Positions 2,435 to 28,884 of a stretch of 34,256 nt of DNA are shown in pieces (within the stretch, counting starts at the first letter, position 1; the number at the start of each line of letters is the position of its first letter). The stretch comes from Lentisphaerota bacterium (lineage in GTDB: Bacteria > Verrucomicrobiota > Kiritimatiellia > RFP12 > UBA1067). A program made the translations under genes and the position numbers. The stretch spans positions 1 through 34,256 of the forward strand of contig SUWC01000030.1 in NCBI GenBank assembly GCA_015061665.1, written 5' to 3'. The notes beneath the pieces were generated by a model, which searched no databases, was not told the DNA's origin, and was given only the letters and a program-made list of their open reading frames with translations.

Positions 2435-2446
2435 AGATGATATAAT
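2417..2446 (+). promoter_or_regulatory. Promoter of the first XylR-type regulator
   Basis: TTGCAT (2417-2422), an 18-bp spacer and a perfect TATAAT (2441-2446). Only 7 nt separate the -10 box from the ATG at 2454, so the transcript is probably leaderless. The -35 lies across the distal operator repeat. Confidence 0.75.
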
Positions 2447-2453
2447 GCAGTCA

Positions 2454-13545: not shown

Positions 13546-15693
13546 TTACTGTGCCTTCCACCAGTCGAAGTCGACTAGCGCCTTGTCCCCCGCCGCATTC
13601 GAGCGGAACACGAAGTAGAGGTCGCGAACGCCCTTCGCGCCCTTAAGCGCAACGCGAAACTCCTTGACCTTCTGCTCAGGCCTGGCAAAGGAAGCCTTGC
13701 CGACGAGCGGACCGTCCTTCGCGTCGAGGCGAATCTCTATGGATGCTCCAGCCTTGTTCGGCTTCGCGGCGACAACAAGAGTCTTCGCGCCCTTCTTGAA
13801 GTCGACTCCCCTGACGAGGATGTGTTCCCCGTCGTCAGCATCTGTAACGATCTGGTTCCAGCGCTCCTTCGACGTTTCGGGCGAAGGCTTCGTCTTGAGT
13901 CCGTATCCCCACGCCATCGTCTCGGCCTCGACGCGGCGGAACGGATTGAACGGCTCCACCTGGCGAAGGACGCCCGACTTGAAGTAGGGAAGCTCGGGAA
14001 TCGTGCCGTCGGCATTGTACTGCATCTCCTGCACCGAGACGGAACGGCGCTCGCTGTGTTCGCGCGTGAAAAGGCGGAGAACGTCGTAGTTGAGCCCGAA
14101 GCAGTAGCTGTGTCCCTTGTAGTCGATGATGCCTGGATGGTTTCCGCGCGTCTTTGGAGTATGGTTCATTATGTGGCCCTTGTGCGTCCACGGGCCAGTC
14201 GGGCTGTCCGACATGGCGTAGCCGATGCCCTCGGGACAGCACGTCGAGGCGAAGGCGAGGTAGTACTTTCCGCTGCGCTTGTAGAGCCAAGGCCCTTCCT
14301 GGTAGTCCTCGATGTGCGGGAGCTTGACGATGTCGCCGGAATAGGAGATCATGTCCTCGTTCAGCTTGACGTAGTAGACGTGCGGGTTGCCCCAGTACAT
14401 GTAGGCCTGTCCGTCGTCGTCGATCCACACGGTCGGGTCGATGTCGTCCCAGTGTTCACGCTGCCAGACGAGCGGCTTGCCGAGGGGGTCCTTGAACGGA
14501 CCGTACGGCGAGTCGGAAACGAGAACGCCGATTCCGTTGCCGTGGAGCGGACAGTACATGTACCACTTGCCGTTGCGTTCGACGACCTGCTCGGCCCAGG
14601 CGCCGTTATCCTTGTTGCGCGCCCACTCGAAGTCCTTGAGAGACGCCACGGCGCCGCAGTCGCGCCAGTTGACCATGTCTGTCGAAGTGTAGAGGAGCCA
14701 GTCCTTCATCTTGAAGTTGCCCGCATCGTCCTCGTCGTGCGTGGTGTAGAGGTATACGACGCCGTCGTGGACATAGGGCGCCGGATCGGCCGTGAACTTA
14801 GTCTGCACGACGGGCATAAGCGGCTGCCCGAAAGGCGTGTCGCGCGAGATGAATTCGCCGATTGTCATGCAGGTGTCGTGGAAGTACTTGCTCAGGCCGT
14901 GGTCGTCGTCCTTGAGCAGATGCAGCTCGCTGTAGGCGTAGTCCCTGTGGAACTGCTCAGCGTGCGCGGTGCGCGCTATCGGGTCGCCTGTTCCGTGGAT
15001 TATGCAGACGGGTCCGGTGAACTTCTTAGCCGTCTCGAAAATAGGCAGGTCGTACGCGGTCTTGATGAATTCGCGTCCGATGACGTTTCCGCCCGGAAGC
15101 TTCACCTCGTCCGGAGGATTCTTCGGATCGTACCGCGCGCCGAATGTGCATCCATTGCGCACGTCGTCCTTCAGTACGCACGCAGGCGCGAGAAGCACGA
15201 CGCGTGAGACTTCCTTCGCGCCGAGCTCGCCGGCGGTCATGGACGCGACCACGCCGCCCTGGGAGTGTCCGATCAGCGACACTTTGCCGCTGCACCACGT
15301 ACGCGACTTCGCCCATTCTACGACCTTCTTGGCGTCCCCTATTTCATTGAGGACGGTCATGTCGCGCATGGCGCCTTCGCTCTCGCCATGTCCGTTGAAA
15401 TCGAAGCGGACGGACGCCACGCCGCGCTTGGCCAGTTCGTCCGCGATGTCCTTGAACATCCCCCACTGCTCGCACTTGTTGCCGCTGAAGCCATGGCAGA
15501 TGACGGCGATCGGGTACTTCGCGCCTGGCCGCTGGTCGTCGGGGAGTCGGAGGACTGCGGAGAGGCGTCCCTTCGAACCCTGGATCGCGAACTTGCCCTC
15601 ACGGTCCTGAATGCCGTCCTCGGCCAGCGCTGCGCCGGCTGCGAGCACGGACAGAACGCCCGTCGTGATGATTGCCACAAGTTGTCTTTTCAT
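13546..15693 (-). CDS. Secreted esterase-GH43 fusion (hemicellulase)
   Basis: A 715-residue bifunctional protein with signal peptide (to about AALAED). Residues ~35-285 are an alpha/beta hydrolase: Ser144 in GHSQGG, Asp237 in HGTGDP, His265 in DDDHGL, and AVICHGFSGN near the oxyanion site, resembling feruloyl or acetyl esterases. Residues ~295-590 are a GH43 five-bladed propeller: catalytic base Asp303 in TADPAPYVHDG, Asp419 in DDIDPTVWIDDDG, and acid Glu466 in YQEGPWLYKR. The last ~120 residues look like a CBM6-type beta-sandwich (RRVEAETMAWGYG onward). It would remove esters and arabinose or xylose from arabinoxylan. First gene of the operon; GGAG precedes the start. Confidence 0.9.
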   Translation of the reverse strand: MKRQLVAIITTGVLSVLAAGAALAEDGIQDREGKFAIQGSKGRLSAVLRLPDDQRPGAKYPIAVICHGFSGNKCEQWGMFKDIADELAKRGVASVRFDFNGHGESEGAMRDMTVLNEIGDAKKVVEWAKSRTWCSGKVSLIGHSQGGVVASMTAGELGAKEVSRVVLLAPACVLKDDVRNGCTFGARYDPKNPPDEVKLPGGNVIGREFIKTAYDLPIFETAKKFTGPVCIIHGTGDPIARTAHAEQFHRDYAYSELHLLKDDDHGLSKYFHDTCMTIGEFISRDTPFGQPLMPVVQTKFTADPAPYVHDGVVYLYTTHDEDDAGNFKMKDWLLYTSTDMVNWRDCGAVASLKDFEWARNKDNGAWAEQVVERNGKWYMYCPLHGNGIGVLVSDSPYGPFKDPLGKPLVWQREHWDDIDPTVWIDDDGQAYMYWGNPHVYYVKLNEDMISYSGDIVKLPHIEDYQEGPWLYKRSGKYYLAFASTCCPEGIGYAMSDSPTGPWTHKGHIMNHTPKTRGNHPGIIDYKGHSYCFGLNYDVLRLFTREHSERRSVSVQEMQYNADGTIPELPYFKSGVLRQVEPFNPFRRVEAETMAWGYGLKTKPSPETSKERWNQIVTDADDGEHILVRGVDFKKGAKTLVVAAKPNKAGASIEIRLDAKDGPLVGKASFARPEQKVKEFRVALKGAKGVRDLYFVFRSNAAGDKALVDFDWWKAQ

Positions 15694-15723: not shown

Positions 15724-15769
15724 ATTATATCATCTTTGCCCATGCCATGCCATTACCCGAAAGGTTAAT
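15724..15769 (-). promoter_or_regulatory. Promoter and 18-bp palindromic operator of the hemicellulase operon
   Basis: The minus-strand -10 is TATAAT (15724-15729). The operator, read towards the gene, is ATTAACCTTTCGGGTAAT (15752-15769), exactly 22 nt upstream of the -10 box. The -35 position is weak, consistent with activation. Three other promoters in the window match this arrangement. Confidence 0.8.
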
Positions 15770-15781
15770 CCTCGGGGAAGC

Positions 15782-15814
15782 GCCATGCCTGCGTCGCCTG
15801 CTGCGCGGCATGGC
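15782..15814. terminator. GC-rich hairpin, possible terminator
   Basis: Arms GCCATGCC (15782-15789) and GGCATGGC (15807-15814), with extra pairing inside the 17-nt loop. There is no T-run, so the role is uncertain. Confidence 0.35.
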
Positions 15815-15850
15815 AAGGGGAATATAGCAAAGTCCGCCGCGGTGCGATGG

Positions 15851-15890
15851 ACCCCCTGGTGTTTGGGACTGTTAAATGACATCAGGGGGT
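15851..15890 (-). terminator. Hairpin downstream of the 1083-residue repeat protein
   Basis: Arms ACCCCCTG (15851-15858) and CAGGGGGT (15883-15890) with a 24-nt loop, just past the stop codon at 15933. It probably ends that transcript; no T-run follows. Confidence 0.4.
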
Positions 15891-15932
15891 TCCGTCACTC
15901 CGCCGGCGGAACATGATCGCAGGCGCAGCGCC

Positions 15933-18900
15933 TCAGCGAACGCTGATTGCGAATCCAGAATCGCGGCGGGCGCAAATGTAGTCGTCGAGGTATCTCACCT
16001 TGACCTTCACGTTGCTGTCGCCGACGCAAGCGGAGAACTCTCCCGAGATCGAATTGAACGCAACGACGTTGACCGTGCCCTTAGTCGGGAGGTTCTTGGC
16101 TCCATTCACGACGAGGCGCGCATTCTCGCCAAGCACGAGCTTGTCGAAGGTCGGAGCGACGACGGACTGGTCGGGATTCACCGTCACAATGAGATCGCCG
16201 TTCAGCACGACCGTTCCGTCGACGAACGAGCCGCTGCCGGATAGCTTCTCGAATGTGCGAGTCGCACCGCCGAGATCCACCTGAGCATTGACGACCAGGC
16301 TGTCGAACACCGGCATGACATTCTGGGGATCGAGCCACTTTGCCTTCAGATACAAGCGGACGGCCTCGGTCTCCGCCGTTGTGAGTGCATTCGTGAAGAC
16401 CAGTGTCTCGCCGAGAAGGCCCTCGCTAGGGACGGGATTCTCAAGCCGCTGGCCGAGGATGACCTTGAGGGACTTCTCGTTGTTGTTCTGGTCAAGCTGC
16501 GAGAGGTGCGATTCAGTATCCGTCCCGGGTTTCACCGTTCCGTCTGCTCCGCACGACCAGCCGCCAATCCACATGTTGGTGGCATAACCGCAGAGAATAT
16601 AGGTCGTATCGGCCGAATTGCCGCCGCCGAATTCAACTTTTTCCTCGCGAGTGCCGCCGATGGACTGATCGTCATTGACCTTCTCCGGATCGTAATAATA
16701 CGTCCGAAGATGAGCGTTGTACCAAGGCCACTGGGAAAGCGCAAATGCGCCAACGCCGTCCCAATCGCCGCCCGCCTGCAATTCGACTGGGAACATCTGC
16801 TGGCAGTCTTCCTCGGTCAAATCGGGCTTGCGCTCCGTTACCGTGAAGAGCGTCCGGTCCTGTCCGCTCGTAATCGAAATGGGTTCGGCGGAGATGTAGC
16901 CGCGATTATTGACGAACATGAGTGCCTGGCGTCCACCGGAGGTGAAGGCACCGTCAGCCGTGGCGCAGTTGTCGGAGAACTGGGCGTTGGCATTAAGCGC
17001 TGCGCCCGCCGTGCCCTTGTTGGCAATTCCCGTCACTTTGCCCGCATCGTCCAGCGTGAGCGTTGCATCGTCTGACGGATCGTACCATGCAACGGCGGTC
17101 TTCACGACGGCGGGTACGGCATATCCCTCGGAGAGAAGATCATCGGCAATTACCCTGGTAACGTTCTCGAAGCCCGCGAAGGATGGGACTCCGTCCGTAT
17201 AGTCCACCTCGATCGGAGTTGCCGCTGTGATCGTCTGCTCGTACATGACGCGGCCGTTCTGGTCGTAGGCAATGTAGTTCTTGTTGTTGAAAAGATCGCC
17301 GTCCTCGGCAGCACCAGTCCAGACTGCCTTGGTCACGACCTTGGTCTCTGAATCTGCCTCGACCGTCACCGTTCCGTTGATCGTACCCTTGTTGTCCAAG
17401 ATGCGGCATGTAACGGCGGACGGCAACGTCAGAGTCGCGCCCTCCGCAACGCGGATGATGTCTATGAATTCCGGTAATGTGACTTTGCTTGAAAACTCTA
17501 GCGTTCCTTCCTCGACGTAAATCGGGCCATTATAGGCGCAGGATTTTCCATCGGACTCGCTCGGATCAAAGGTAAATGTTCCAGAGCCACGCTTGGTGAT
17601 GCCGCCGCTGGCCTCCTCGCATGTTACATTTCCGCGGAATTTGGCATCTGAACCATTGGTGTTAAACACCATTCCACCAGCGAGGATGCGAACTGAATGC
17701 TGCTTGTCGATCAGTTCGGACCCCACCCATGGATGATTTCCGCTCTTGACGAATTCTCCACCATTGAATTCAATCATGCCATTCGCTTCGTTGTCTCGGA
17801 GAATCGAATGGGTGCGTAGCTTGCCGCCCTTGTTAAGCCGAATCGTGCCGCCCGCGCCGCCGAAGCACATGTATTCGGTGCTGGTGGAATCCATCACGAC
17901 GACTCCCGTGCCGCCGACGGTCAAGACGCCCGTACCGCCGTTGACACCATCCCACGCCTTGTTTCCGATACAGAAACGCTTCTCCGAGTAAAACTCTCCA
18001 CCCGTGACTGTCAAATTGCCTGTCGACCCGTCGGAATCTCCAACGCGCACATAATTTGCCGTATTCGTCCAGGCACCTCCAGTAATCGTGAGACGACCGA
18101 GTGCATTGGAGTTGCAGCTAATCCTCAAGGACCTGTCGTTGTAGACAACACCACCAGAGACGGTCACCTCGCCACTTGAATACGAGCCATTGGCGATATT
18201 GAAATCTCCATCAGCCGTAACCGTAAGCTTTCCGCCCGTCATAACGACCTCGCCCATCGCAATGCCGTTATCATTCTTGCCCTCATGCCCGATGGAGAAA
18301 CCGCGGTTGGCGATGAATTCACCACCTGATATTTCTAGCCGACCTGTTGCATTTTGCGAACGACCAATTGCAGCATGCTGTGCGCTGATTGTACCGCTCT
18401 TGAGCTGAGCAACACCTGCTGCTTTATTGCCCCAGCCGAGATTGAACGAACCCCACCAGCCCGTATTGTTCACCGTAAAGGTTCCGCCGTTGACTACGAG
18501 GACGCCGTATCCCGCGTCACGACCGACATGGACACATCCGCCTGTGATAGCGCCGCCGGTGAGTTCAAGACGGCCTTCGCCCCTTCCATCGGTGTCTAGA
18601 CCGATGAACATTTCATTGGCAAACGTGAACGAACCACCCCGCATGTCGATGAGACCCCGGCTAGCACGCCCGTGGGCAATTGAGGGACTGCCCGCATCGG
18701 TGATTTCACCGCCGAGGATGCGCAACGTACCGACTGCATTCTCGTGCACACGCCACGCGTCGGTATAATACCAAATCCCCGCCAAGCGAGCGATGTAGAG
18801 GCCCTCCCCCGTCATGTTGATCTTGCCACTGACAACTTCAACGACACCGGTCGAATAGTCCTCGCTTGCGATGCGGACGCGATCGCCGGCAGAAAGAGTC

Positions 18901-19184
18901 TTCCCCTCTGCTACACTCAGTCTGATTGCATCTGCACCATTCAGGAAACTGAGGCTGGAAAGCGTATAGTCCTTGTCGACAACCGAATCTCCGCTTGTTC
19001 CATATGGGTATGCTGCAACGCCAGACGATTCGTCGACAGCAACGTCCCAGTTCTCAGCGGTAGACCAGTTGGCGTCGGTGCCCGATCCAGTCCAGTTGCT
19101 GGCCTGCGCCGCGACTGCTGCGGACAGCGAAAACGCACAGCAGGCGAGTTTTGCGAATCTTTTCAAGACAGTTTTTGTCGACAT
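15933..19184 (-). CDS. Large secreted beta-strand-repeat protein with LamG-like domain
   Basis: A 1083-residue exported protein. A signal peptide (to about AAVAAQAS) is followed by NWTGSGTDANWSTAENW, the aromatic W-x-G-x-G motif seen at the start of many autotransporter-associated beta-strand-repeat proteins. Residues ~60-570 hold many repeats of the form GxLxVTGGxF/VxxxxxxxIG, which suggests a long right-handed beta-helix. Residues ~690-930 look like a concanavalin/LamG-type domain (AVVKTAVAWYDPSDDATLT, ALMFVNNRGYISAEP, MWIGGWSCGAD). It ends in GFAISVR, like two other proteins here. No beta-barrel domain is evident, so it is not a classical autotransporter. It may bind glycans or the substrate surface; function not established. 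Confidence 0.8.
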   Translation of the reverse strand: MSTKTVLKRFAKLACCAFSLSAAVAAQASNWTGSGTDANWSTAENWDVAVDESSGVAAYPYGTSGDSVVDKDYTLSSLSFLNGADAIRLSVAEGKTLSAGDRVRIASEDYSTGVVEVVSGKINMTGEGLYIARLAGIWYYTDAWRVHENAVGTLRILGGEITDAGSPSIAHGRASRGLIDMRGGSFTFANEMFIGLDTDGRGEGRLELTGGAITGGCVHVGRDAGYGVLVVNGGTFTVNNTGWWGSFNLGWGNKAAGVAQLKSGTISAQHAAIGRSQNATGRLEISGGEFIANRGFSIGHEGKNDNGIAMGEVVMTGGKLTVTADGDFNIANGSYSSGEVTVSGGVVYNDRSLRISCNSNALGRLTITGGAWTNTANYVRVGDSDGSTGNLTVTGGEFYSEKRFCIGNKAWDGVNGGTGVLTVGGTGVVVMDSTSTEYMCFGGAGGTIRLNKGGKLRTHSILRDNEANGMIEFNGGEFVKSGNHPWVGSELIDKQHSVRILAGGMVFNTNGSDAKFRGNVTCEEASGGITKRGSGTFTFDPSESDGKSCAYNGPIYVEEGTLEFSSKVTLPEFIDIIRVAEGATLTLPSAVTCRILDNKGTINGTVTVEADSETKVVTKAVWTGAAEDGDLFNNKNYIAYDQNGRVMYEQTITAATPIEVDYTDGVPSFAGFENVTRVIADDLLSEGYAVPAVVKTAVAWYDPSDDATLTLDDAGKVTGIANKGTAGAALNANAQFSDNCATADGAFTSGGRQALMFVNNRGYISAEPISITSGQDRTLFTVTERKPDLTEEDCQQMFPVELQAGGDWDGVGAFALSQWPWYNAHLRTYYYDPEKVNDDQSIGGTREEKVEFGGGNSADTTYILCGYATNMWIGGWSCGADGTVKPGTDTESHLSQLDQNNNEKSLKVILGQRLENPVPSEGLLGETLVFTNALTTAETEAVRLYLKAKWLDPQNVMPVFDSLVVNAQVDLGGATRTFEKLSGSGSFVDGTVVLNGDLIVTVNPDQSVVAPTFDKLVLGENARLVVNGAKNLPTKGTVNVVAFNSISGEFSACVGDSNVKVKVRYLDDYICARRDSGFAISVR

Positions 19185-19235
19185 AGACAGCCCCCTCGGA
19201 TTCCAGGCGAGACCATCCCGCCCAGTTCCACCAAT

Positions 19236-19281
19236 ATACTACCATCTTCAGAATTACCACACCATTACCCAAAAGTGTAAT
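19236..19281 (-). promoter_or_regulatory. Promoter and 18-bp palindromic operator of the 1083-residue protein gene
   Basis: The minus-strand -10 is TAGTAT (19236-19241). The operator, read towards the gene, is ATTACACTTTTGGGTAAT (19264-19281), with 22 nt between the two. The box is identical to that of the 1677-residue protein gene, and GAAGATGGTA before the -10 is shared as well. Confidence 0.8.
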
Positions 19282-19322
19282 GCGGTGGGTGCACCTGAAG
19301 GAAACAATACAGACATGATCGA

Positions 19323-19351
19323 AGGGGGCCGTCCCACAGCGACAGCCCCCT
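19323..19351 (-). terminator. Hairpin terminator after the 1677-residue protein gene
   Basis: A stem AGGGGGC (19323-19329) against GCCCCCT (19345-19351), with partial further pairing inside, lies 24 nt past the stop codon at 19375. A short TTC follows on the minus strand; a moderate terminator. Confidence 0.5.
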
Positions 19352-19374
19352 GTAGTGTTGCGAATTGACGCAAA

Positions 19375-22300
19375 CTACCGAATCTTTATCGCAAATCCGG
19401 CGGCGCTTAAGTCTCCCTCAAGACTGACGGTGCCATTGGCGTTCTCGACGAGCCGCAGTGCGCAGACGCGCGACTTGGAGCGGATCTTTGTCGGCCAGTT
19501 CTCAATCTTGTCTGCCGTCAGGACAACGACATGCGTCCCGATCTCAGCCGTGTCGAACGGCGAGAGGTCTATCGTCGCGCCCTGCGCGAACGTCACCGTG
19601 CCGCCAACCGTAAGACCTGCTTCGAGCGACCCCGTGACCGTCACGTTTGCCGTCCCGATCGTGCCCGCGCCCTTTACAGTGTCAAGCGTCCAGTCGCCGC
19701 CTCCGAAATCAAGCGTCGCAGCCTGGGCGATTTCAAGGCAGCCTGGTACAATCTGCCGCTCAATGGAGCCGAGCCACTTGTTGCCGAGATATGTGCGCAT
19801 CGCCTCAAGCTGGTTATCGGAGAGCGCCGATCCAAACATGAACGCCTCAGCGATATCTCCACAGGATGACTGATATCCGTTCCTTGGCATAACGCCGATA
19901 AACAGTGCGCATTCGGCAGGAAGAGACATCTCGCCAACACTTTCTGGACCGAAGGCCGTAACCTCACCGTCCATTCCACAACGAGTGGCAGAAACCTCGT
20001 GCGTCGCAGGATCGTAGCGCAAGGTCCAGATATTCCACTCATTCAGCGGACTCTTCGTGACACCGCCCATTTCCACGTTTGCCCCGTACTTCACGCTGCT
20101 GCTGCCGGAACCCTTGTCATCCTCGATGCTGAAGCTGAAAGTGCGGTTCGGGCTACCTCCGTCGTTGACGATGCCCATCGTATACATTCGCGTCACCGTT
20201 TCTGTTTCGCTCTTCACCTTGGGCACATTCCGAGAGAGGACGACAAGCGTCATTGCCTCGGAACCGGCCATGGCCGTGTTAACGCTTCCTTTCGGAGAGG
20301 AAAATCCGAACTCTTCCTTCATCGCAAGCAGATTGCGCCACCGCTGGACCTTCTCGCCGTATTTCGAAGGACCAACGGCGCAAGTCGCATTCATCACCGA
20401 TCCGGCAACGCCCTTGTTGCTAATATTCGTCAGACGCGAATCTCCGTTCACAGTCACAGTGGAGGCATCTGCAAGGTCATACCACGCCAGTGCGCTTCTT
20501 GCAAATTCTGGGGCAGCGGCGGCGATTTCGTCCGGCGCGGCAAAACGAGCGTCGCTTTCGACAACAACCTTTATGCTCCTGCACTGTATCGAAGAACAGT
20601 CCCTTGCAAATCCATCATAGACAACAACAACATCCGTGTCGGTTGTGGGCAACATGTCAAAAAGCACATCGCCTGACGCATTCCTCACGATCCAGTTGTC
20701 GGCATTAGCAAAATCTCCATCTCCGGCAAGGTTTCTCCACTCGCCCGCAACGGGAACAAGTGCCTCCGCGGAAAGAACACGTATCGTTCCTCCCTGTTCG
20801 TGATACGTACCTGGCAGCTGGCTGTCTCCGGCTACCCTGTATGTCCTCACGGTCACCTGCGCCCCTCCAAGGTCGAGCTTGCCATCTTCGTAGACGGATA
20901 TCTCCTTCATATCCGCCAATGCTATCGCGCCGCTCTGGAACGCAAGCGCTCCACCTTCGACATTGATGCCCCCTCTGCAACTGAAGGCACCCTTTATCGT
21001 AAGTGTTCCTTCGCCAAGCTTGTTGAATGCGCCAACGCCCGACAGCGACAGGGATATCGAATCGTCGGACGATGAATTCTCCGATTCGTAGTACGCACCA
21101 TTCGCCCCTACGACAACCTTCAGCGGACTCTGCGCACCTTGGGCGCTTACCGCCGGAAGGACGTCGTTTACATGTATGAAGCCGCTCGGCTCCCTCATAA
21201 GCCTGCCGCCGTTCCAGTTCAGCGTTGCGTTGTTGTTTACGGCAACGAATTCAGTCGTTTTGATAAGTCCGCGCTTAGTGCCGTCTCCGTTGAGGTTGAC
21301 AACAGACGGTCCTCCCGTTCTGTTTCCTACGTTCACGGAGACTGAGGTGTCAAACACACCATTAACATTCAATTCGGCATTCGCGCCCATGTAAAACGCC
21401 CAGCTCGTGACAAGAGAGCAATCTGCGCCGATGTTAACCACTCCGGTTCCGCCGTTCTGCGTAATGTTTAACGTATGTATCGTCGCTGATCCCGACCTTA
21501 AATCTACGACAGCATTTGCTCCGCCGCCGTTGCATACGTTAAGATCGTGATCACCGCTGAGTTCGAACGTTCCTCCATCTAGAACAAGCGTCGCCGAACC
21601 CGCGTAGCCGACGACAAAAGTCTTGGGGCTTGAGTAAGTGGCGCCATTTATTATGTTCATCTCGGAAATACCGCCTGCATCAGCAGAAAGCCGAGTTTCT
21701 TCGCCCGTTGCCTCGAACACCGTTCCCTCTCCTGAAATGTTGACGACATCCCTACGCGTACCGTCAGCCCTGCCCGTGCCGGTGCGGAGCCTTTTCACAC
21801 TGACGCGTCCTCCCGTGATATTTACAACATTGCTGACAGAGGAAGCATCCGCGCCTACGATGAAGTCATTCGTAACGGAGAGATTTCCACCAGAAACATC
21901 CAGTCTTCCGCCAGGATTGTTTGCACCGCGACCAACATAAAGGTTCGCGGCAGAAACAGAATCGCCGACCTCGAACGTCGCGACCTTGTCTACACCTTTA
22001 TTGAGGACGAGAGTGTCTATCTCTACATCCGACATCGAGCTCGGCGCCGGATCCCACGACTCGACGCGATTGAACTTCTCGCTCTCGCCGTTTCCATCCG
22101 CCCAATACCTTGTCTTGGGCGAGTTGTCCACGCTCCAAAGCGCATAGACAACTGCAGTTCCGTCTCCGGTATCGATTTCATTGTCAGTATCCCAGCCACC
22201 GAACAACCAGCCCTCGCGCGAAGGGGTCGCCGTCGGGAGGATGTGCTGCCCCGCAGCAAGGCGGTGCATCGCGTTTGTCGTCGAGGAGCCCTCATAGGGA

Positions 22301-24408
22301 ACGTAGCTGACGGTGCGGAAATTATTGGCTGTTTCGTAGGCATCGACGCGCTCGAGAACCTCCGAAGGCGTTTCCCCGGAAAGCGCCTGCGTGATGTTGG
22401 CGATTTCCTCGCTTGTCACGCCGCACATTTCGAGATAGGCGCGGCAACGCGCGGCGATCGATCTGCCGTAATCATTGTCGCTGTACACATATTCGCCTCC
22501 GTTGCGGCACCATCCGCGATGAAGGTGTCCCAAGCTTGTTTCGAGTGTCGTCGGAGAAACCAGTCCAGACTCAAGCTTCGCGAAGTTGCTCATGAGATAG
22601 TCGCGATAGAGCGTCTCTTCCTCGACGCCCATAAGACCGAGGACAAGCAGCCCCACTATGCCGGTCCGGTCGCGTCCGATGCGGCAGTGGAAATAGCTGG
22701 GCAGCTTGCCCTGCGTGCCCCACGTCGAAAACACCTTGCGGATCATGTTCGTGAAGTTGCCGCTGTTGCCGGAATCGAGCTGAGGCCCGCCGTTGTAGCT
22801 CATGCCGCAGTCCACATATTCGCAGTCGTCTGCGGCGAAAGAGGCGGTTGCACCGCTGTAGAAGGACGGCTGGTCGACGCCGACAGGCCTGAGTTCTATT
22901 TCAGTCTTGAGACCGATCCGGGAAAGGAAGCTTGCAGACCTCTCCTCGGCCGTCGCATTCTGGAAGCCGTCGAGGTTTCCGCCGCGGAAGAGGACGTTTT
23001 GATTCATTCTCTTGCCATCGAGGGATTCAAGCGGCCAGCTGCCGACATCGCGCACGTTGGCGACGGTCGTCCCGTCCGGCGCCTCAATCTTGATCGTGCG
23101 CGGAGCGACAGCCTTCGTCGTGAAGGAATATTCCACACCGCCAAGCGTATCTTCATACGTTTCGCCTGTCTTGAGGTTGGTCCAGTTCTTAACCTCCGAT
23201 CCTACGGTGAACGTCAACGACTCGGGCATTTCATAAGATGCAGTCCCGTTCGCAGTTGAAGAAGAAAAATGGGTAAAGTTCAGTGGAGCTTCCAGCCATG
23301 ACTCCAACTTGTTGCCGTGAAGCGCGTACGGTCCGTAGCTTCCGCCTGCCGAAACGTCGATGCCGATTGGTCCGGCGTTCTGGGTGTAGGTTGTCCCGCC
23401 GACTATCGCCGTGCCTTCGTAGACGATGACTTCAGTAAACTTCGAAGCATCCGCAACGGTCAACGTACCAGCGCCCTTCTTGATCAACGGACCAGAGCCC
23501 GTAAACTCGTGCGCTATGCCGACATTATAGCCAGCCGTATCGACCACAAGCCCGCCGGACTGAAGAACGCACGAAAGGTTGGGATTCGTGGCGATGTAGT
23601 CATCTTGATTGCGCGTTGCCTTGAGTGTTCCGCCGTTAAACACAATTGTTCCGGTCTCTGTTGAGCCAAGTTTGTCGATACGGAACTTCGGCGTGGTCAG
23701 GACGCCCCCGTTCAAGGTCACTTCTGCGACAGTGCCGTCCGTATCATGGCAAATACAGAAGCCATATCCGGAATCGACCATGGTGAACGTCCCGTCGTTC
23801 ATAGTGAAACTGCCCGTTCCGCCCTCTCCCAAATAGAACACATCCTTGTTGACGATAATATCGCCGCCGTTCAACACGAACTCGCCTTCCGTACCGGCCT
23901 TGTAGCCGACATAGCAGTTGTCGGAAACAGTAAGCTTCCCGCCGTTGAACACAAACCGTCCATACGCCCCCGACGCTTCCTTGCGTGGTACATAAACAGC
24001 CGCCGCGGAATAAGTCCCGCTCTCGATTGTCAGCGCCCCAGGGGTACTATCCGCGCCAACACGAATCTTGCCGGTCGTCGTCAGCCCGTACGAAGGTTCC
24101 GACGCACTCCACACAACGGGTTCGCTTGAAGTCCCGGAATTGATCTTCACGTCGCTGCTGCCGATGTTGCCGCCGGCATTGAAGACCAGCGACCCGGAAT
24201 TGTTGAAGTACACAGTGCCACCGGATGAATCCGGCACATTTGCTCCGCCTGTCGTACTCGTTGAGTCGGAAGCCCATTTTGCTGTATCCAGCCAATATCC
24301 GTCGCCTCCCAGCCAGTATCGCCCGGCCAGGGCGGTTGATGCGGACAATAACAACGCTGCGCAGGATGCCATGCGCAGAAGACAATTTACAGGCTTCAAC
24401 GACTGCAT
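19375..24408 (-). CDS. Giant secreted repeat protein with embedded tyrosine-phosphatase domain
   Basis: A 1677-residue protein with signal peptide (to about ASTALAG) then RYWLGGDGYWLDTAKW. Residues ~60-350 are beta-helix repeats (FNGGKLTVSDNCYVG type). Residues ~447-665 match the Y_phosphatase3 family of tyrosine/lipid phosphatases: VRDVGSWPL, NVLFRGGNLDGF, LSRIGLKTEIELRP, and the active-site loop HCRIGRDRTG with Cys575 and Arg581. Residues ~697-758 resemble an InlB-type repeat (GWLFGGWDTD...YALW). A second W-x-x-G-x-G module starts near 768 (RYWADGNGESEKF), followed by more beta-helix, a LamG-like domain around 1330-1570 (ARSALAWYDLADAST) and the end GFAIKIR. AAAGGAGG precedes the ATG. Confidence 0.85.
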   Translation of the reverse strand: MQSLKPVNCLLRMASCAALLLSASTALAGRYWLGGDGYWLDTAKWASDSTSTTGGANVPDSSGGTVYFNNSGSLVFNAGGNIGSSDVKINSGTSSEPVVWSASEPSYGLTTTGKIRVGADSTPGALTIESGTYSAAAVYVPRKEASGAYGRFVFNGGKLTVSDNCYVGYKAGTEGEFVLNGGDIIVNKDVFYLGEGGTGSFTMNDGTFTMVDSGYGFCICHDTDGTVAEVTLNGGVLTTPKFRIDKLGSTETGTIVFNGGTLKATRNQDDYIATNPNLSCVLQSGGLVVDTAGYNVGIAHEFTGSGPLIKKGAGTLTVADASKFTEVIVYEGTAIVGGTTYTQNAGPIGIDVSAGGSYGPYALHGNKLESWLEAPLNFTHFSSSTANGTASYEMPESLTFTVGSEVKNWTNLKTGETYEDTLGGVEYSFTTKAVAPRTIKIEAPDGTTVANVRDVGSWPLESLDGKRMNQNVLFRGGNLDGFQNATAEERSASFLSRIGLKTEIELRPVGVDQPSFYSGATASFAADDCEYVDCGMSYNGGPQLDSGNSGNFTNMIRKVFSTWGTQGKLPSYFHCRIGRDRTGIVGLLVLGLMGVEEETLYRDYLMSNFAKLESGLVSPTTLETSLGHLHRGWCRNGGEYVYSDNDYGRSIAARCRAYLEMCGVTSEEIANITQALSGETPSEVLERVDAYETANNFRTVSYVPYEGSSTTNAMHRLAAGQHILPTATPSREGWLFGGWDTDNEIDTGDGTAVVYALWSVDNSPKTRYWADGNGESEKFNRVESWDPAPSSMSDVEIDTLVLNKGVDKVATFEVGDSVSAANLYVGRGANNPGGRLDVSGGNLSVTNDFIVGADASSVSNVVNITGGRVSVKRLRTGTGRADGTRRDVVNISGEGTVFEATGEETRLSADAGGISEMNIINGATYSSPKTFVVGYAGSATLVLDGGTFELSGDHDLNVCNGGGANAVVDLRSGSATIHTLNITQNGGTGVVNIGADCSLVTSWAFYMGANAELNVNGVFDTSVSVNVGNRTGGPSVVNLNGDGTKRGLIKTTEFVAVNNNATLNWNGGRLMREPSGFIHVNDVLPAVSAQGAQSPLKVVVGANGAYYESENSSSDDSISLSLSGVGAFNKLGEGTLTIKGAFSCRGGINVEGGALAFQSGAIALADMKEISVYEDGKLDLGGAQVTVRTYRVAGDSQLPGTYHEQGGTIRVLSAEALVPVAGEWRNLAGDGDFANADNWIVRNASGDVLFDMLPTTDTDVVVVYDGFARDCSSIQCRSIKVVVESDARFAAPDEIAAAAPEFARSALAWYDLADASTVTVNGDSRLTNISNKGVAGSVMNATCAVGPSKYGEKVQRWRNLLAMKEEFGFSSPKGSVNTAMAGSEAMTLVVLSRNVPKVKSETETVTRMYTMGIVNDGGSPNRTFSFSIEDDKGSGSSSVKYGANVEMGGVTKSPLNEWNIWTLRYDPATHEVSATRCGMDGEVTAFGPESVGEMSLPAECALFIGVMPRNGYQSSCGDIAEAFMFGSALSDNQLEAMRTYLGNKWLGSIERQIVPGCLEIAQAATLDFGGGDWTLDTVKGAGTIGTANVTVTGSLEAGLTVGGTVTFAQGATIDLSPFDTAEIGTHVVVLTADKIENWPTKIRSKSRVCALRLVENANGTVSLEGDLSAAGFAIKIR

Positions 24409-24436
24409 ATTGGATACCTCCTTTGTTGACTTTAAT

Positions 24437-24482
24437 ATAGTACCATCTTCACAAAAGTCACGCTATTACCCAAAAGTGTAAT
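24437..24482 (-). promoter_or_regulatory. Promoter and 18-bp palindromic operator of the 1677-residue protein gene
   Basis: The minus-strand -10 is TACTAT (24437-24442). The operator ATTACACTTTTGGGTAAT (24465-24482) lies 22 nt upstream. The stretch 24483-24550 beyond it shows no clear feature. Confidence 0.8.
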
Positions 24483-24550
24483 ATGTGTGGCAGATCAATA
24501 AACTCCAGGTGCCTAGAAGCCAGGTTAAGGCCCGGAGCGACGCAACCCAG

Positions 24551-25393
24551 CTACCGGCTTTGCAGAGGATGGCGCTTGAAGAATTCCCAGAGCTCGTGCG
24601 TCGTGCTCGTGCTGTGCGCGGGGTCCTCGGAATGCCAATGCCCCTTGCCCTCAAGGGCAAGCAGGCCGATCTCGACTTTCGAACCGCGCTTCTCCCATGT
24701 CGTCAAAGACGCGTGGGAGTCCTTGCGGGGATAGTGCGCCTTCTCGGTCTTGAGGTCGAGGCCCTGGTGCTTCGCCCATTTGCCGACATATTCTGGGATA
24801 AACGGATAGCCGCCTGCAGGATGATTGAGGTCGCCCTTCCACCAGAAGACGTTGTCGCCCGTTCCGTGAACGTGCAGGAACGAGACAGGCCTCTCCGACT
24901 TGGGCGGACGATTATCGAAGCGCACGCCGCTCACGGGGCCAAACGCCGCGACTTTAGCGCTCAGGTGCTCCATGCACTGGTAGGTCATCATCGCACCCAG
25001 CGAAAAGCCGGTGACGTATATGCGCTTGCGGTCGATCTTGTAGCGCTTGGACATCTCCTCGATCACCGCCTCGATGAACTTGACGTCTCGCATCCCGCCG
25101 ACGTCCCACCACGTGTCGATGCCGTTGGGATAGACGACGACAAATTTGTTTTTGTCCGCGCATTCGTTCCAATGCGTCTGTCCCCGCTGGAAGAATGCGT
25201 CCTGACGAAACCCATGGAGCGAGATCACCAACGGCGCGTCCGCCTTCGGGAGGCCCTTCGGCGCGTAGACGAGCATCGTCCGCTCCTTGCCGTCGACGGT
25301 CAGCTTCTCCAGCTGGTCGGGGGGCTTTTCCACCGCAAAGGCAGTAACAACCATGCAGGCACTGGCTGCAAAAAGAAGATGAACACACTTCAT
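24551..25393 (-). CDS. Secreted CE1/PHB-depolymerase-like esterase (feruloyl esterase-like)
   Basis: A 280-residue exported esterase (signal peptide to about VTAFAVE). The fold opens with RTMLVYAPKGLPKADAPLVISLHGF, typical of the LpqC/feruloyl-esterase group. Catalytic residues: Ser131 in VTGFSLGAMMTY, Asp180 in HVHGTGDNVFWW, and His252 or His254 in GKGHWHSEDP. It likely cleaves ferulate or acetyl esters from hemicellulose. It starts 19 bp after the larger fusion gene and is probably co-transcribed with it. It is a clear paralogue of that gene's central domain: both share IDRKRIYxxGFSxGxMMTY. Confidence 0.87.
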   Translation of the reverse strand: MKCVHLLFAASACMVVTAFAVEKPPDQLEKLTVDGKERTMLVYAPKGLPKADAPLVISLHGFRQDAFFQRGQTHWNECADKNKFVVVYPNGIDTWWDVGGMRDVKFIEAVIEEMSKRYKIDRKRIYVTGFSLGAMMTYQCMEHLSAKVAAFGPVSGVRFDNRPPKSERPVSFLHVHGTGDNVFWWKGDLNHPAGGYPFIPEYVGKWAKHQGLDLKTEKAHYPRKDSHASLTTWEKRGSKVEIGLLALEGKGHWHSEDPAHSTSTTHELWEFFKRHPLQSR

Positions 25394-25412
25394 TTCAAAA
25401 ATCCCTTCCTTG

Positions 25413-28400
25413 TCAACAGAGATGGATCACAAACCCCTTTATCAGGGAATGCCTGTATACGCCTTCAAGATAGATAGTCTGTGGCAGGTACGGTCCCAGG
25501 GCAACGAGGGCAAGCTTAGGCAAGACGCCGGACTCGACGACGGAAGCGTCCAAGTCAAGCCTGTAGCCGCTCGCCCCCTCAGGGATGCGGACGTATCCGT
25601 CGACGCGATCGAGCGCCAGGCCCCAGCCAGGCCCCACGGGCTCGGCGAACCTGAGCATCAGGTAGTCGCATCCGGTTACTGCGATGTTCTGCCGTTCCCA
25701 GAGAGTCTGGAGAGTAGCCGTCCCGTTGTAGGTAGCCCCTGCGGCAATGCGGTGGAACCGCCCCCTGTCGACTATGGCTGCGGGGACGTCGTCCACTTCG
25801 TTCTGCGCCGGCACCTTGTACACTCCCTCGACCTTGATCTGATGCGTTGGAGCTGTTCCCCACGGCGACGTTAACAACGTGATTTCCGGCAGATTGCCGC
25901 TTGCGCGAATGGAGTCGTCAAAATAATAACTATATTCCGTTGCCCCCTTTGGCAGATCAGTGAAGGATAGATTGCCCAGAAACGCGAGACCCCAACCTGA
26001 ATCGGGCACAGGCTCGGCGAACTTGACTTGAATGGACTCGTAGCCCGTCACGTCCACGTTAAGCATCTTGAACGCAAACTGCAAGGTTCCGCTTGGCGTA
26101 TAGCCCGTCCAGCCGTCGCCGTTTTCCGTGGAGTCAACCGGAGCGTCGTCACTATCGCGAGTCTGGGGGATCTCGACCAAGTCTACCGGCTGGGTGACCG
26201 CCCGTACATGCGCCTTGTAGACGCCCGCGACCTTGATCTGATGCGCGGGCGACGTTCCCCACGCCGCCGTGAGCAACGAGCACTGAGGCAAACCGGACGA
26301 TCGGTCGCTCTCCGTGGGCGTGTAGACATACTCCGAGACCCCTTTTTCCAAGTCCTCCCATTCGTTGTTCGACCAAAATGACACCCACCAACCGGAATCC
26401 GGCACGGGCTCGGCGAACTTGATGCACACATACTCACAATCCGAGACATCGACGTTTAGCATTTTGAACGCGACCTGCAAGTTTCCGCTTGCCGTATAAC
26501 CCGTCCAGCCGTCGCCGATTTCCGTGTTTTCAACCGGAGTGTCGTTGCCCTCGCGAATCTGCGGAATCTCGATGAACTCGAGCGTCGTATAGTCGATGGC
26601 GCCTGCCGACGTGCTGGGGCCGCCGGAATGGATGGCGATTTCGGTAATAGCGTCCGCTGCGTTTTCCTTGACGATCACAAGCTTGCACTGGCGATAGGAA
26701 TCCACGGCGATGACGAAATTGGCGTCGAGGCCGATCTTGGCGGAGCGGCACAACAGGACGCGCGACTCGTCCGTGACGTCGACAAGCTTCACGAAGTACT
26801 TGTCGTTGACGATGCCGTTGCTTTTCAGCGTGAGTGTGTACGTTCCTTTCTCGAGCTGGATGGCACGGTAGATGTTGCTGTCGCCGGAGGTTTTGCCTGT
26901 ACCATAGGAGAGGTTCGTTCCTTCGCCGGCCGCCGTCTCCGTCCAGCCGCGGTCAGCGGACGTAGAGTCCATCCGCATCTTAAGGGTCTTGTCGCAGGCG
27001 GCGTCGAGCGTGTACTGGCTCATGAAATTCCACATCGTCTTGCTGGAATCCCCGTCCTCAGTATGTGTGGTGTAGTCGTTGTGCCCCATGCCGTCGCATC
27101 CGTACATGACATACGGGAAACCGCCTTCTCCAGCGGCGTAGACGCTTTTCGTGTAGCGTCCGTCGACATTCGTCACGGTCGGAACGGAATCGCATCCGTT
27201 GCGCGCGACCATCATGTCGCGGATCGTCGGCAGCCTTGCGTAGGGGACGAAGTCGTCGCCCTTGCCGTGGATATGCAGGAAAGGCACCGGACGCGAGCCT
27301 GTCGCGCGGAGGTGGAACTCGTTCAGCTGATAGCCGGATATGGACGCGAACGCGGCGAAGGTATCGGAAGCGAGAGTCGTCGCCGCGTATGTCATCATGC
27401 CGCCGTTTGAAAATCCGCAGCAGTAGATGCGCTTGCGGTCGATCTGGTAGTTCGCGGCGACGTCCTCGATGATGGCCTTGAAGAAGTCGATGTCCTCCGT
27501 GCTCTCGGCGTCTGAGAGCCAGCCGTAGATCTGCGAGCCAAGCAGGGCCCGCTTGAGCCCCTGCGGATAGACGACGATGCAGCCCGCCTCGTCCGCCGTC
27601 GCGAGCTTGAACGGTGAGCGGTCGTTGGGTTCGGCGTAGACGCCCTCGTCTTCGGAATTCTCCTGCCCTACCTTTGTTTTGACTCCGTTGATGTCCTTGT
27701 AGAACGAGTAGATGGTCCCATACGCTCCGTGAAGGGAGAAGACCAGCGCAGGCTTCGCCTTTATTTCTTTGGGGACGTAGAGCGCATAGGACCGCTGTAC
27801 GTCATCGACTGTGACAAGGCGTCGTTCGTGGACCGTAACGGGAACCGAGTCGCCATAGACTTTGCCTTTCGAGTCGACGACAGATCCCTCATCTACCTTC
27901 AACTCGCCTGTAAACCGCCAGGGCGCGCCAACCGTGAGGACGCCCTTGCCTGCCTTGGTGAGCCCGCCGTCAGTTCCGCCCTCTACGCCGGTTTCAATCG
28001 CGAAGTCGTTGAAGTTGACGTCATAGCCGTTCGTGTCGAACGTGCCGCCGTTTGCTCCGATTTTGAGATGAATATAATTGCCCCCATATTGCTCGCAGAA
28101 ATTCCCCCGCGCGGCAGTTGCCTTGATCGTGCCGCCGTTCAGGAGGAACGTGCCGGTCGAGCTGCTCATGACCGAGCCAAAGACGGGAATCGCCAGTGTG
28201 CCGCCGGTAAGTTCGTAGTAGCCGGTTGAACCGCCGCCGGCAAACCCGAGCTTGAAGGCCTCGGCATCGTTGTCCGACGCGATCACGGTTCCGCCGGACT
28301 GGTAGACCCAGCCATGTCGATCGCCGTCTCCCCAGTTCTTGCCGCCGACCTGGATTCGCGTCGCCGTGATGTCCGCGCCGTCTGTTACGCGAAGGACGCC

Positions 28401-28832
28401 TGGCAGGTTCTCATCGCATCCTACATAGAGTTTGCCGCCCAGCACGCACGTGAGGCTCACCGTGAGCGTGGCGGCATCGGTCTCCGCTCCGACGTACCAG
28501 CTGCCGCTCGTCGAGATTTTCTTTCCGTTGGCGGAGGCCAGCGTGTAGCTCTGCGAGCCCGTGAAGGTCAGCTTGTCGAATTGTTCCGTATCGACGTCCA
28601 CGTTGATCGCATTGCCGCCTGCGCCGGCAGTGGTGTTGGTGAGGACGACGCTGTCGCCGCTTTTTGGAAGGCGGTCTGCCGTCGCGCCATCCTTGAGCCA
28701 GTTGCCAAGGCTAGACCAATTGTTGTCCTCCCCTGCGCCCGTCCAGGTGAAAGTACGGGCCATGCATGCCAGCGAAAGACAGCTGGCGACGATGAACAAA
28801 AGCGATTTAGGTGAAAAGGACATCGTTTTCAT
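25413..28832 (-). CDS. Secreted repeat-protein/esterase fusion with tandem C-terminal modules
   Basis: A 1139-residue protein. The signal peptide (to about SLACMAR) is followed by TFTWTGAGEDNNWSSLGNW, the same W-x-G-x-G opening as the other two large proteins. Residues ~45-325 are beta-strand repeats; ~330-610 are a PHB-depolymerase/feruloyl-esterase domain with Ser475 in GFSNGGMMTY, Asp526 in HGKGDDFVP and His584 in GMGHNDY. Then comes a ~140-residue beta domain and, at ~770-1139, three tandem modules sharing GxxGWTGYTxSGxLQxAFKMLNVDV and FAEPVPDSGW; these are likely carbohydrate-binding. It ends GFVIHLC. The start at 28832 is chosen because it lies 6 nt after the -10 box. Confidence 0.85.
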   Translation of the reverse strand: MKTMSFSPKSLLFIVASCLSLACMARTFTWTGAGEDNNWSSLGNWLKDGATADRLPKSGDSVVLTNTTAGAGGNAINVDVDTEQFDKLTFTGSQSYTLASANGKKISTSGSWYVGAETDAATLTVSLTCVLGGKLYVGCDENLPGVLRVTDGADITATRIQVGGKNWGDGDRHGWVYQSGGTVIASDNDAEAFKLGFAGGGSTGYYELTGGTLAIPVFGSVMSSSTGTFLLNGGTIKATAARGNFCEQYGGNYIHLKIGANGGTFDTNGYDVNFNDFAIETGVEGGTDGGLTKAGKGVLTVGAPWRFTGELKVDEGSVVDSKGKVYGDSVPVTVHERRLVTVDDVQRSYALYVPKEIKAKPALVFSLHGAYGTIYSFYKDINGVKTKVGQENSEDEGVYAEPNDRSPFKLATADEAGCIVVYPQGLKRALLGSQIYGWLSDAESTEDIDFFKAIIEDVAANYQIDRKRIYCCGFSNGGMMTYAATTLASDTFAAFASISGYQLNEFHLRATGSRPVPFLHIHGKGDDFVPYARLPTIRDMMVARNGCDSVPTVTNVDGRYTKSVYAAGEGGFPYVMYGCDGMGHNDYTTHTEDGDSSKTMWNFMSQYTLDAACDKTLKMRMDSTSADRGWTETAAGEGTNLSYGTGKTSGDSNIYRAIQLEKGTYTLTLKSNGIVNDKYFVKLVDVTDESRVLLCRSAKIGLDANFVIAVDSYRQCKLVIVKENAADAITEIAIHSGGPSTSAGAIDYTTLEFIEIPQIREGNDTPVENTEIGDGWTGYTASGNLQVAFKMLNVDVSDCEYVCIKFAEPVPDSGWWVSFWSNNEWEDLEKGVSEYVYTPTESDRSSGLPQCSLLTAAWGTSPAHQIKVAGVYKAHVRAVTQPVDLVEIPQTRDSDDAPVDSTENGDGWTGYTPSGTLQFAFKMLNVDVTGYESIQVKFAEPVPDSGWGLAFLGNLSFTDLPKGATEYSYYFDDSIRASGNLPEITLLTSPWGTAPTHQIKVEGVYKVPAQNEVDDVPAAIVDRGRFHRIAAGATYNGTATLQTLWERQNIAVTGCDYLMLRFAEPVGPGWGLALDRVDGYVRIPEGASGYRLDLDASVVESGVLPKLALVALGPYLPQTIYLEGVYRHSLIKGFVIHLC

Positions 28833-28838
28833 GCCAAT

Positions 28839-28884
28839 ATTGTAGCACGGGCGCACAAAGTCAACAATTCCCCTAAAGTGTAAT
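28839..28884 (-). promoter_or_regulatory. Promoter and 18-bp operator of the esterase fusion operon
   Basis: The minus-strand -10 is TACAAT (28839-28844) with a possible -35 TTGTTG at 17 bp. The operator ATTACACTTTAGGGGAAT (28867-28884) lies again exactly 22 nt upstream; its gene-proximal half has one mismatch. The ATG follows the -10 by 6 nt. Confidence 0.75.

Follow-up and report, generated by a model that had tools for sequence, protein, structure and literature searches.

NarL heptamers follow the consensus TACYYMT. Another well-known layout is that of Escherichia coli XylR, in which a LacI-like sensor is joined to an AraC HTH and which activates a pentose regulon from a position near the -35. 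Direct repeats are the usual binding sites of AraC-type proteins. At the E. coli ogt promoter, NarL acts from an inverted repeat centred at -44.5 and abutting the -35, its operator having a 7-2-7 layout according to the relevant part of PMC7419079. In Bacteroidota, the hybrid two-component systems (HTCS), as presented in the corresponding section of a review (PMC10766802), bring together a membrane sensor kinase and a regulator to control arabinoxylan-type CAZyme genes, and neither NarL nor LuxR occurs in the main text of that review. Closer in phylogeny, Pontiella agarivorans (Kiritimatiellota) has kinase/regulator genes near GH and sulfatase genes, with the same Pfam kinase (PF07730) and receiver domains near CAZymes as here, but the portion of PMC10880615 concerned gives no operator, regulon or promoter geometry. 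Searches of open-licence papers brought up no operator or regulon described for the phylum of the Kiritimatiellae.

The window analysed here, i.e. the whole stretch of 34,256 nucleotides from a Lentisphaerota bacterium, carries four 18-bp palindromes on the minus strand, which is also the strand of their genes, and the distance from each of them to its -10 hexamer is exactly 22 nt, each -10 fitting TANNAT. The single orientation and the invariant spacing, both put forward in a preliminary description of this DNA, are thereby confirmed at all four promoters:

15752..15769, minus strand: putative operator palindrome ATTAACCTTTCGGGTAAT of the GH43/esterase operon (pattern match; matrix score 41.4)
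15724..15729, minus strand: -10 TATAAT with TGA upstream, 22 nt from the palindrome (promoter pattern)
19264..19281, minus strand: putative operator palindrome ATTACACTTTTGGGTAAT (pattern and matrix)
19236..19241, minus strand: -10 TAGTAT with TGG upstream, 22 nt from the palindrome (promoter pattern)
24465..24482, minus strand: putative operator palindrome ATTACACTTTTGGGTAAT (pattern and matrix)
24437..24442, minus strand: -10 TACTAT with TGG upstream, 22 nt from the palindrome (promoter pattern)
28867..28884, minus strand: putative operator palindrome ATTACACTTTAGGGGAAT (pattern and matrix)
28839..28844, minus strand: -10 TACAAT with TGC upstream, 22 nt from the palindrome, ATG 6 nt later (promoter pattern; putatively leaderless)

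When the window was dinucleotide-shuffled 100 times, with up to 3 mismatches allowed, the mean was 0.07 matches and none of the 100 shuffles reached four. The genes served by these promoters, and two regulator genes to which we return below, are as follows:

13546..15693, minus strand: GH43, alpha/beta hydrolase and CBM6 protein, first gene of the operon (Pfam)
9441..13527, minus strand: likely remainder of the GH43/esterase operon, judging from strand and spacing
12163..13527, minus strand: AXE1 acetyl xylan esterase, likely in this operon
10358..12166, minus strand: GH5-like gene, likely in this operon
9441..10361, minus strand: alpha/beta esterase, likely the last gene of this operon
15933..19184, minus strand: giant repeat protein of 1083 aa, signal-like start (by eye), no Pfam family at 0.001
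19375..24408, minus strand: giant repeat protein of 1677 aa, signal-like start (by eye), internal Y_phosphatase3 domain
25413..28832, minus strand: giant repeat protein with an alpha/beta-hydrolase (esterase-like) domain
24551..25393, minus strand: PHB-type esterase, likely co-transcribed with 25413..28832
8229..9407, plus strand: XylR-type regulator (Peripla_BP_3 and HTH_18), rival candidate binder
2445..3620, plus strand: second XylR-type regulator (Peripla_BP_3 and HTH_18), rival candidate binder

For the fourth promoter, the ATG at 28832, 6 nt past the -10, is the more likely gene start over an earlier GTG.

At the scale of the 3.44-Mb genome, the pattern ATTACCC-N4-GGGTAAT-N22-TANNAT with at most 3 mismatches gave 24 matches versus 0 for the reversed pattern, two of the 24 being second-strand readings of palindromes already counted (C18:32542 and C41:6162). 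Together with the window shuffles, this control rules out a chance motif. The matrix was built on 20 sites, leaving out these two readings, the near-duplicate C90:1353 and C174:33829 (spacing 20); the resulting consensus is AT[T/C]ACCC-NTTT-GGGTAAT, with a final triplet AAT in 13 of the aligned sites and GAT in 4. All 20 contain TGNTANNAT, the TG before the -10 not being part of the search pattern, and in all 20 the operator adjoins the -35 and lies 22 nt from the -10, a distance set by the pattern's design. When inverted repeats upstream of TGNTANWAT were scanned without any motif, on loci mostly selected for holding sites, their offsets peaked at 22 (22 of 130, against 0-7 at other offsets), 21-23 being less prominent in the relatives' loci (7, 6 and 6 of 76; others up to 5).

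The genes downstream of the sites mostly relate to hemicellulose and pentose use (GH43, GH10, GH127, AraA, FGGY kinase, transketolase) or encode giant secreted repeat proteins, and counterparts of these targets in relatives, such as the transketolase, symporter and FGGY kinase genes (named by eye), have sites as well. The loci behind the site and gene-content scans were likewise mostly chosen for holding sites, and genes were called by a simple script based on length and GC3, some of whose calls are wrong. The suggestion that hemicellulase genes are tied to those of giant secreted repeat proteins is borne out in the window and in relatives alike. These data support a real multi-promoter regulon with fixed geometry. 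Sites outside this theme lie at a kinase gene on C174, on C90, at a 102-aa frame on C63 and, on C129, at an 824-aa protein with no Pfam match.

Concerning promoter architecture, the poor -35 hexamers had been taken as pointing to a class-II-type activator. In the loci read, however, a weak -35 combined with an extended -10 is usual: the -35 hexamers of 59 promoters without a site are no better or worse than those of the 20 with one (P = 0.40), and a weak -35, being common to site-free promoters, is therefore no argument for activation and was rejected as a sign of it. What stands is the position itself, since a centre near -43.5 is plausible for an activator. In the same line, an ATG lies 6-7 nt past the -10 at 11 of 29 sites, but extended -10 boxes and leaderless starts were rejected as regulon-specific traits because 22 site-free genes also have TGN-TANWAT 6-7 nt before their ATG.

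The motif, which the preliminary description did not recognise, has TACCC/GGGTA half-sites that resemble those of NarL, with a centre 2 bp shorter: the 20-site consensus is TACCC-N4-GGGTA, whereas the half-sites of the NarL 7-2-7 operator are N6 apart. Besides, the candidate pairs described below combine, like NarX/NarL, a receiver and GerE HTH regulator with a HisKA_3 kinase, and the predicted targets concern hemicellulose and pentoses rather than the nitrate of NarL. The centre near -43.5 also compares with the -44.5 of the ogt site in the part of PMC7419079 that describes it. Control of arabinoxylan-type CAZyme genes by a kinase and a regulator, as proposed here, recalls the HTCS described in the cited section of PMC10766802, but kinase and regulator are separate here, the output domain is GerE and not AraC, and targets are scattered; neither the C63 nor the C174 pair is a kinase-regulator fusion with an AraC HTH.

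The palindrome is likely the operator of a trans-acting activator, most likely of the NarL/FixJ family, for a scattered arabinoxylan/arabinan and pentose regulon, and on sequence grounds its binder is probably a sensor-controlled activator of the NarL type. Two kinase/regulator pairs fit, one on contig C63 (regulator 33917-34528) and one with its regulator at C76:86-694. The C63-type regulator (L183:8915-9529) has Response_reg and GerE domains, and the C63 kinase has HisKA_3, its gene overlapping that of the regulator (same operon); the C76 kinase lies off the C76 contig in this genome and was seen by eye in L202, L203 and L220. In five loci of relatives (L156/L208 from G030, L202, L204, L205 and L207), the space between a GH43-like gene and a divergent GH43-like-kinase-regulator operon holds a single palindrome; its distances to the two -10 boxes are 22 and 23 nt, and the box at 23 nt lacks TG. 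In this genome, the end of C147 carries this palindrome together with the start of the divergent gene, and the end of C63 carries the kinase and regulator genes; judging from L202, these two ends presumably abut. Sites scoring above 20 occur in 6 of the 7 loci retrieved by regulator protein at 90% identity or more, two of the six (L203 and L208) having been chosen earlier for their sites, versus no site above 17 in the 8 other loci of the same scan (at most 47% identity). In addition, a site follows the end of the C76 regulator gene at 70 nt and that of a G009 regulator gene (C24) at 4 nt, and in G008 a site lies upstream of a kinase-regulator operon. The earlier statement that no candidate regulator is encoded beside any site is therefore not supported, given these pairs and the two XylR-type genes of the window. 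Nevertheless, GAT is the final triplet of the three sites at the C63/C147 locus, which counts against this reading, and since the genome encodes 24 GerE-type regulators and the C63 and C76 types are 43% identical, the binder may be only one of these two, or neither.

Among 57 relatives, C63-type regulators (at least 67% identity) were found only in G008, G030 and G032, and C76-type regulators (E up to 1e-60; at least 84%) only in G008, G009 and G019. The genomes with either type are the five of 34 genus-mates with most profile hits (27, 10, 10, 8 and 7; E up to 10), the other 29 comprising one with 7 hits and the rest with at most 5 (P = 2e-4, the union of the two types and the 67% cut having been chosen after the data were seen). 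Counted per megabase, these five do not exactly fill the first five places (P = 8e-4), G020 having 4 hits in 0.9 Mb. Strict filters were applied in the survey of relatives, among whose hits weak ones (E up to 10) are numerous; as profile R1 derives from this genome, its own 44 hits were excluded from the test. Phylogenetic closeness was rejected as the cause of the co-occurrence, since SecY identity does not correlate with hits (rho 0.23, P = 0.24) over 28 of the 34 genus-mates, in which it ranges from 70 to 81%; three genus-mates without a match and three with a partial match were left out. Each regulator type is missing from some site-rich genomes, the C63 type from G009 and G019 and the C76 type from G030 and G032, so that neither alone accounts for all. 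For the check proposed earlier, co-occurrence with one regulator family, the NarL family is the best candidate, with its two types taken together; G011 has a strong site (38.4) with neither.

Other readings have to be weighed against these data. That the binder is a different global regulator, of the LacI, CRP or some other family and with its gene at a distance from the sites, would suit a dispersed regulon that includes central pentose metabolism, and an 18-bp palindrome fits many dimeric regulators; this is nonetheless unlikely in view of the NarL-type pairs repeatedly linked to and co-occurring with the sites, and of the paralogous operator that adjoins the C174 pair. It is also quite unlikely that the palindrome, which abuts the -35 region, is a repressor operator blocking RNA polymerase there until released by sugar: the usual weakness of the -35 here is no proof of activation, but the strict spacing and upstream-only position suggest contact with polymerase, and in none of the 20 aligned sites does the palindrome extend as far as the -10, as the search pattern dictates.

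Finally, the XylR-type regulators of the window share their domain architecture with E. coli XylR, itself a near--35 activator of a pentose regulon whose function would suit pentose sensing. One of them (8229..9407) is separated from a site by 6.3 kb, and its end from the last gene of the GH43/esterase operon by 33 nt. Of the 16 HTH_18 matches of the genome, one on C147 and one on C18 have a site at about 4 kb and about 12 kb, respectively. Yet the operator is palindromic, unlike the direct repeats usual for AraC-type proteins, and neither XylR-type gene of the window is preceded by a site. Moreover, relatives of the 8229..9407 protein at E up to 1e-60 are limited to G008 (77%) and G034 (40%), and it is therefore absent from G009, G019, G030 and G032 despite their sites; this one of the 16 HTH_18 proteins thus does not occur wherever sites do. 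This window regulator is accordingly disfavoured, and an XylR-type binder seems very improbable.

Under the preferred NarL-type model, the presumed periplasmic N-terminal sensor of the HisKA_3 kinase would detect an inducer, and the kinase would phosphorylate the NarL/FixJ-family regulator (receiver and GerE HTH), whose dimer would bind the palindrome at about -43.5. At these promoters, with their extended -10 and weak -35, it would make contact with RNA polymerase and, acting by activation rather than repression, would switch on arabinoxylan/arabinan breakdown, pentose use and the giant secreted repeat proteins together.

A paralogous kinase/regulator pair on C174 lies next to a putative operator variant of its own. 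Across 58 genomes, TTACACTTTGGAGTAA with 0-1 mismatch gave 4 matches, all on the two contigs bearing the C174 regulator, while over all mismatch levels together the reversed control (37 matches) exceeded the pattern (24). This pair was rejected as master regulator of the regulon, given its own operator variant and a 96% ortholog in G009 only (next best 56%). More tentatively, and with slightly less than even chances, an expanded set of NarL-type pairs in these Kiritimatiellae (24 GerE regulators in this genome) may take the role that HTCS and ECF arrays have in Bacteroidota, each pair reading its own variant of TTACnC-TTT-GnGTAA at 21-23 nt from an extended -10, so that a few base positions would form a specificity code, and the pairs may move horizontally with operator-tagged islands.

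The regulon supplies a testable putative operator and a short list of candidate regulators. It also gives the giant secreted repeat proteins, for which no role is known, a functional tie to hemicellulases. Should every kinase/regulator pair turn out to read an operator variant of its own, the substrate ranges of uncultured fibre degraders would become readable from promoter sequences.

The four palindromes ATTACCC-N4-GGGTAAT of the window were confirmed at the positions assigned to them in the preliminary description (15752, 19264, 24465 and 28867), all on the minus strand and with 22 nt between every palindrome and a TANNAT hexamer, the chance level being 0.07 matches on average per shuffled window with up to three mismatches. 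The window makes up the whole of contig C71, one of 177 in the draft genome G000 (3.44 Mb), and the scan of this genome that had been proposed, with the 22-nt spacing included (ATTACCC-N4-GGGTAAT-N22-TANNAT, up to three mismatches), gave 24 matches versus none for the reversed control. Alignment of 20 of them, four being dropped, reveals invariant C7, G12-G14, T38, G39, T41, A42 and T46, the TG at 38-39 being conserved though absent from the search pattern. When a 26-position matrix was run over the 298 kb that hold the aligned sites, scores of at least 32 came from the 20 training sites and a copy on contig C90, two more plausible sites (AraA; GH5) scored 25.6 and 25.0, and all remaining scores were at most 17. 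At C53:16483 and C90:1353, on separate contigs, near-identical promoter copies are found; one lies upstream of a GH43 gene and the other about 190 nt ahead of a gene that, judged by eye, is citrate-synthase-like and that has its own -10.

Genes behind the sites of G000 (first downstream genes by Pfam, unless stated)
Glycosidases: GH43 (several), GH10, GH95, GH97, GH127, GH5, GH2
Sugar enzymes: AraA, L-fucose-isomerase C-terminal protein, FGGY kinase, transketolase, aldose 1-epimerase
Others: mannitol-dehydrogenase family, Gfo/Idh/MocA, sodium:solute symporter, GDSL esterase
Further site-bearing genes: three giant repeat proteins (window); sensor kinase (contig C174)

The gene classes behind the genome-wide sites, whose inspection had also been suggested, make the regulon mainly one of hemicellulose and pentose genes, with some exceptions. 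In the relatives, with genes named by eye from sequence starts, sites also accompany transketolase and FGGY kinase (G030), the symporter (G030 and G009) and giant proteins (G008, G009 and G030). One giant repeat protein of the window (19375-24408) contains a tyrosine-phosphatase-like domain (Y_phosphatase3, 3e-19).

An ATG lies 6-7 nt past the -10 in 11 of the 29 own-genome sites scoring above 22, and 5-7 nt past it in 13 of 28 sites of the relatives (29 sites, start found for 28), 12 of these 13 at 6-7 nt. Transcripts starting so close to the ATG would be leaderless, and this proximity supports the use of the -10 boxes and sets the palindrome centre near -43.5, compared to the -44.5 from which E. 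coli NarL is active at ogt (PMC7419079). Extended -10 elements and leaderless starts are also frequent at genes without a site, and leaderless genes look common in G000: TANWAT 6-7 nt before ATG occurs in 32 cases for 258 genes (G000 loci, 390 kb), 28 of them with TGN and most without the palindrome. The poor -35, earlier considered a mark of these promoters, does not distinguish them, as its quality did not differ between 20 promoters with a site and 59 without one (P = 0.40).

Among the regulators of G000 (24 GerE and 16 HTH_18 matches), several candidates of the NarL type lie near sites: the C76 regulator ends 70 nt from one, the C111 kinase/regulator pair is near another, and the kinase gene of the C174 pair starts 6 nt past the -10 of a site-bearing promoter. 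In G030, the 36 kb examined of a 40.6-kb contig contain seven sites scoring above 20 around a kinase/regulator pair, and the regulator shares 91% identity with the C63 one of G000. When named genomes were scanned at the protein level, the C63-type regulator turned up, at 90% identity or more, at seven loci (L202-L208; records titled as RUG isolates, Kiritimatiellae, Verrucomicrobia or Lentisphaerae). Six of the seven have sites above 20, L203 and L208 being the G008 and G030 contigs chosen earlier for their sites, and L206 ends before the kinase promoter; no site above 17 was found at the eight other loci of the scan (regulator at most 47% identical). The arrangement of a GH43 gene diverging from a GH43-kinase-regulator unit is complete in L202, L204, L205, L207 and L208 (also read as L156), and their shared palindrome stands 22 nt from the -10 on one side and 23 nt from TATAAT on the other. 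In G000, contigs C147 and C63 each appear to carry one part of this layout at their end. G032 has a weaker site (19.8), flanked by a GH127-like gene and the pair, with the spacing absent on the kinase side. In relatives (L202; L203 with G008:C268), C63-type and C76-type pairs are found tail to tail. At L060 (G000:C108, HTH 19334-19495), the 669-aa frame of a NarL-type regulator continues, as read by eye, without stop into GH43-like sequence with a signal-like start, which may represent a fusion or a lost stop.

Among 57 relatives, the C63 type (at least 67% identity; next best 54%) is found in G008, G030 and G032, and the C76 type (E <=1e-60) in G008, G009 and G019. The five genomes with either type have the most profile hits among 34 genus-mates (27, 10, 10, 8 and 7), the remaining 29 having at most 5 apart from one with 7 (E <=10). 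On the co-occurrence with one regulator family that was to be tested, the two NarL-type regulators together give P = 2e-4 (per megabase P = 8e-4, the five then not being strictly the top five); the joint C63/C76 grouping was chosen after the data were seen. Singly, the two types give P = 0.005 and 0.002. As for the XylR types of the window, the nearer one (8229-9407) has its relatives at E <=1e-60 confined to G008 and G034, the latter at 40% identity. Since SecY identity is nearly equal across most genus-mates, regulators at 84-96% identity suggest that these genes may have moved horizontally.

Variant operators were also observed. Three promoters near the C174 pair carry [TC]T[AG]C[AT]CTTTGGAGTAA at 21 nt, as does one promoter of a G009 locus with a 96% identical regulator (GGAGTAA half-site; L048 8620, 5631 and 338; L184 9326). 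In 58 genomes, TTACACTTTGGAGTAA has 24 matches with up to two mismatches: the four with 0-1 mismatch are all on the C174 and G009 contigs bearing this regulator, while the other 20, with two mismatches each, include a further site on C174, one on C61 and two in the window. The rest look like noise, since the reversed control has 37 matches, counted for all mismatch numbers together. The variant ATTACACTTTGGTGTTAT follows the C61 regulator, and ATAACACTTTATGGTWAT occurs twice on C129, a contig also containing a regulator. These few cases suggest that operators and regulators are paired. At L055 6890, an extended -10 that is followed by an ATG after 6 nt has, at a distance of 22 nt, a TGCCCCCCGTGGGGGGCT palindrome, perhaps the operator of another regulator.

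The main text of a review of hemicellulase gene control presents HTCS, ECF and catabolite repression as the common systems and contains no mention of NarL or LuxR (PMC10766802), and a study of Kiritimatiellota describes kinases (PF07730) and regulators in the neighbourhood of CAZymes (PMC10880615); the search results for open-licence papers showed no operator work in the phylum. The kinase combines HisKA_3 with, by eye, a signal-like start, a sensor region and a membrane stretch. Beyond the DNA anatomy of the sites, we infer that this kinase would respond to a saccharide outside the cytoplasm by phosphorylating the regulator; a dimer of the latter would then bind at -43.5 and touch the polymerase, with the C63-type and C76-type regulators, singly or jointly, as candidate readers of the window sites.
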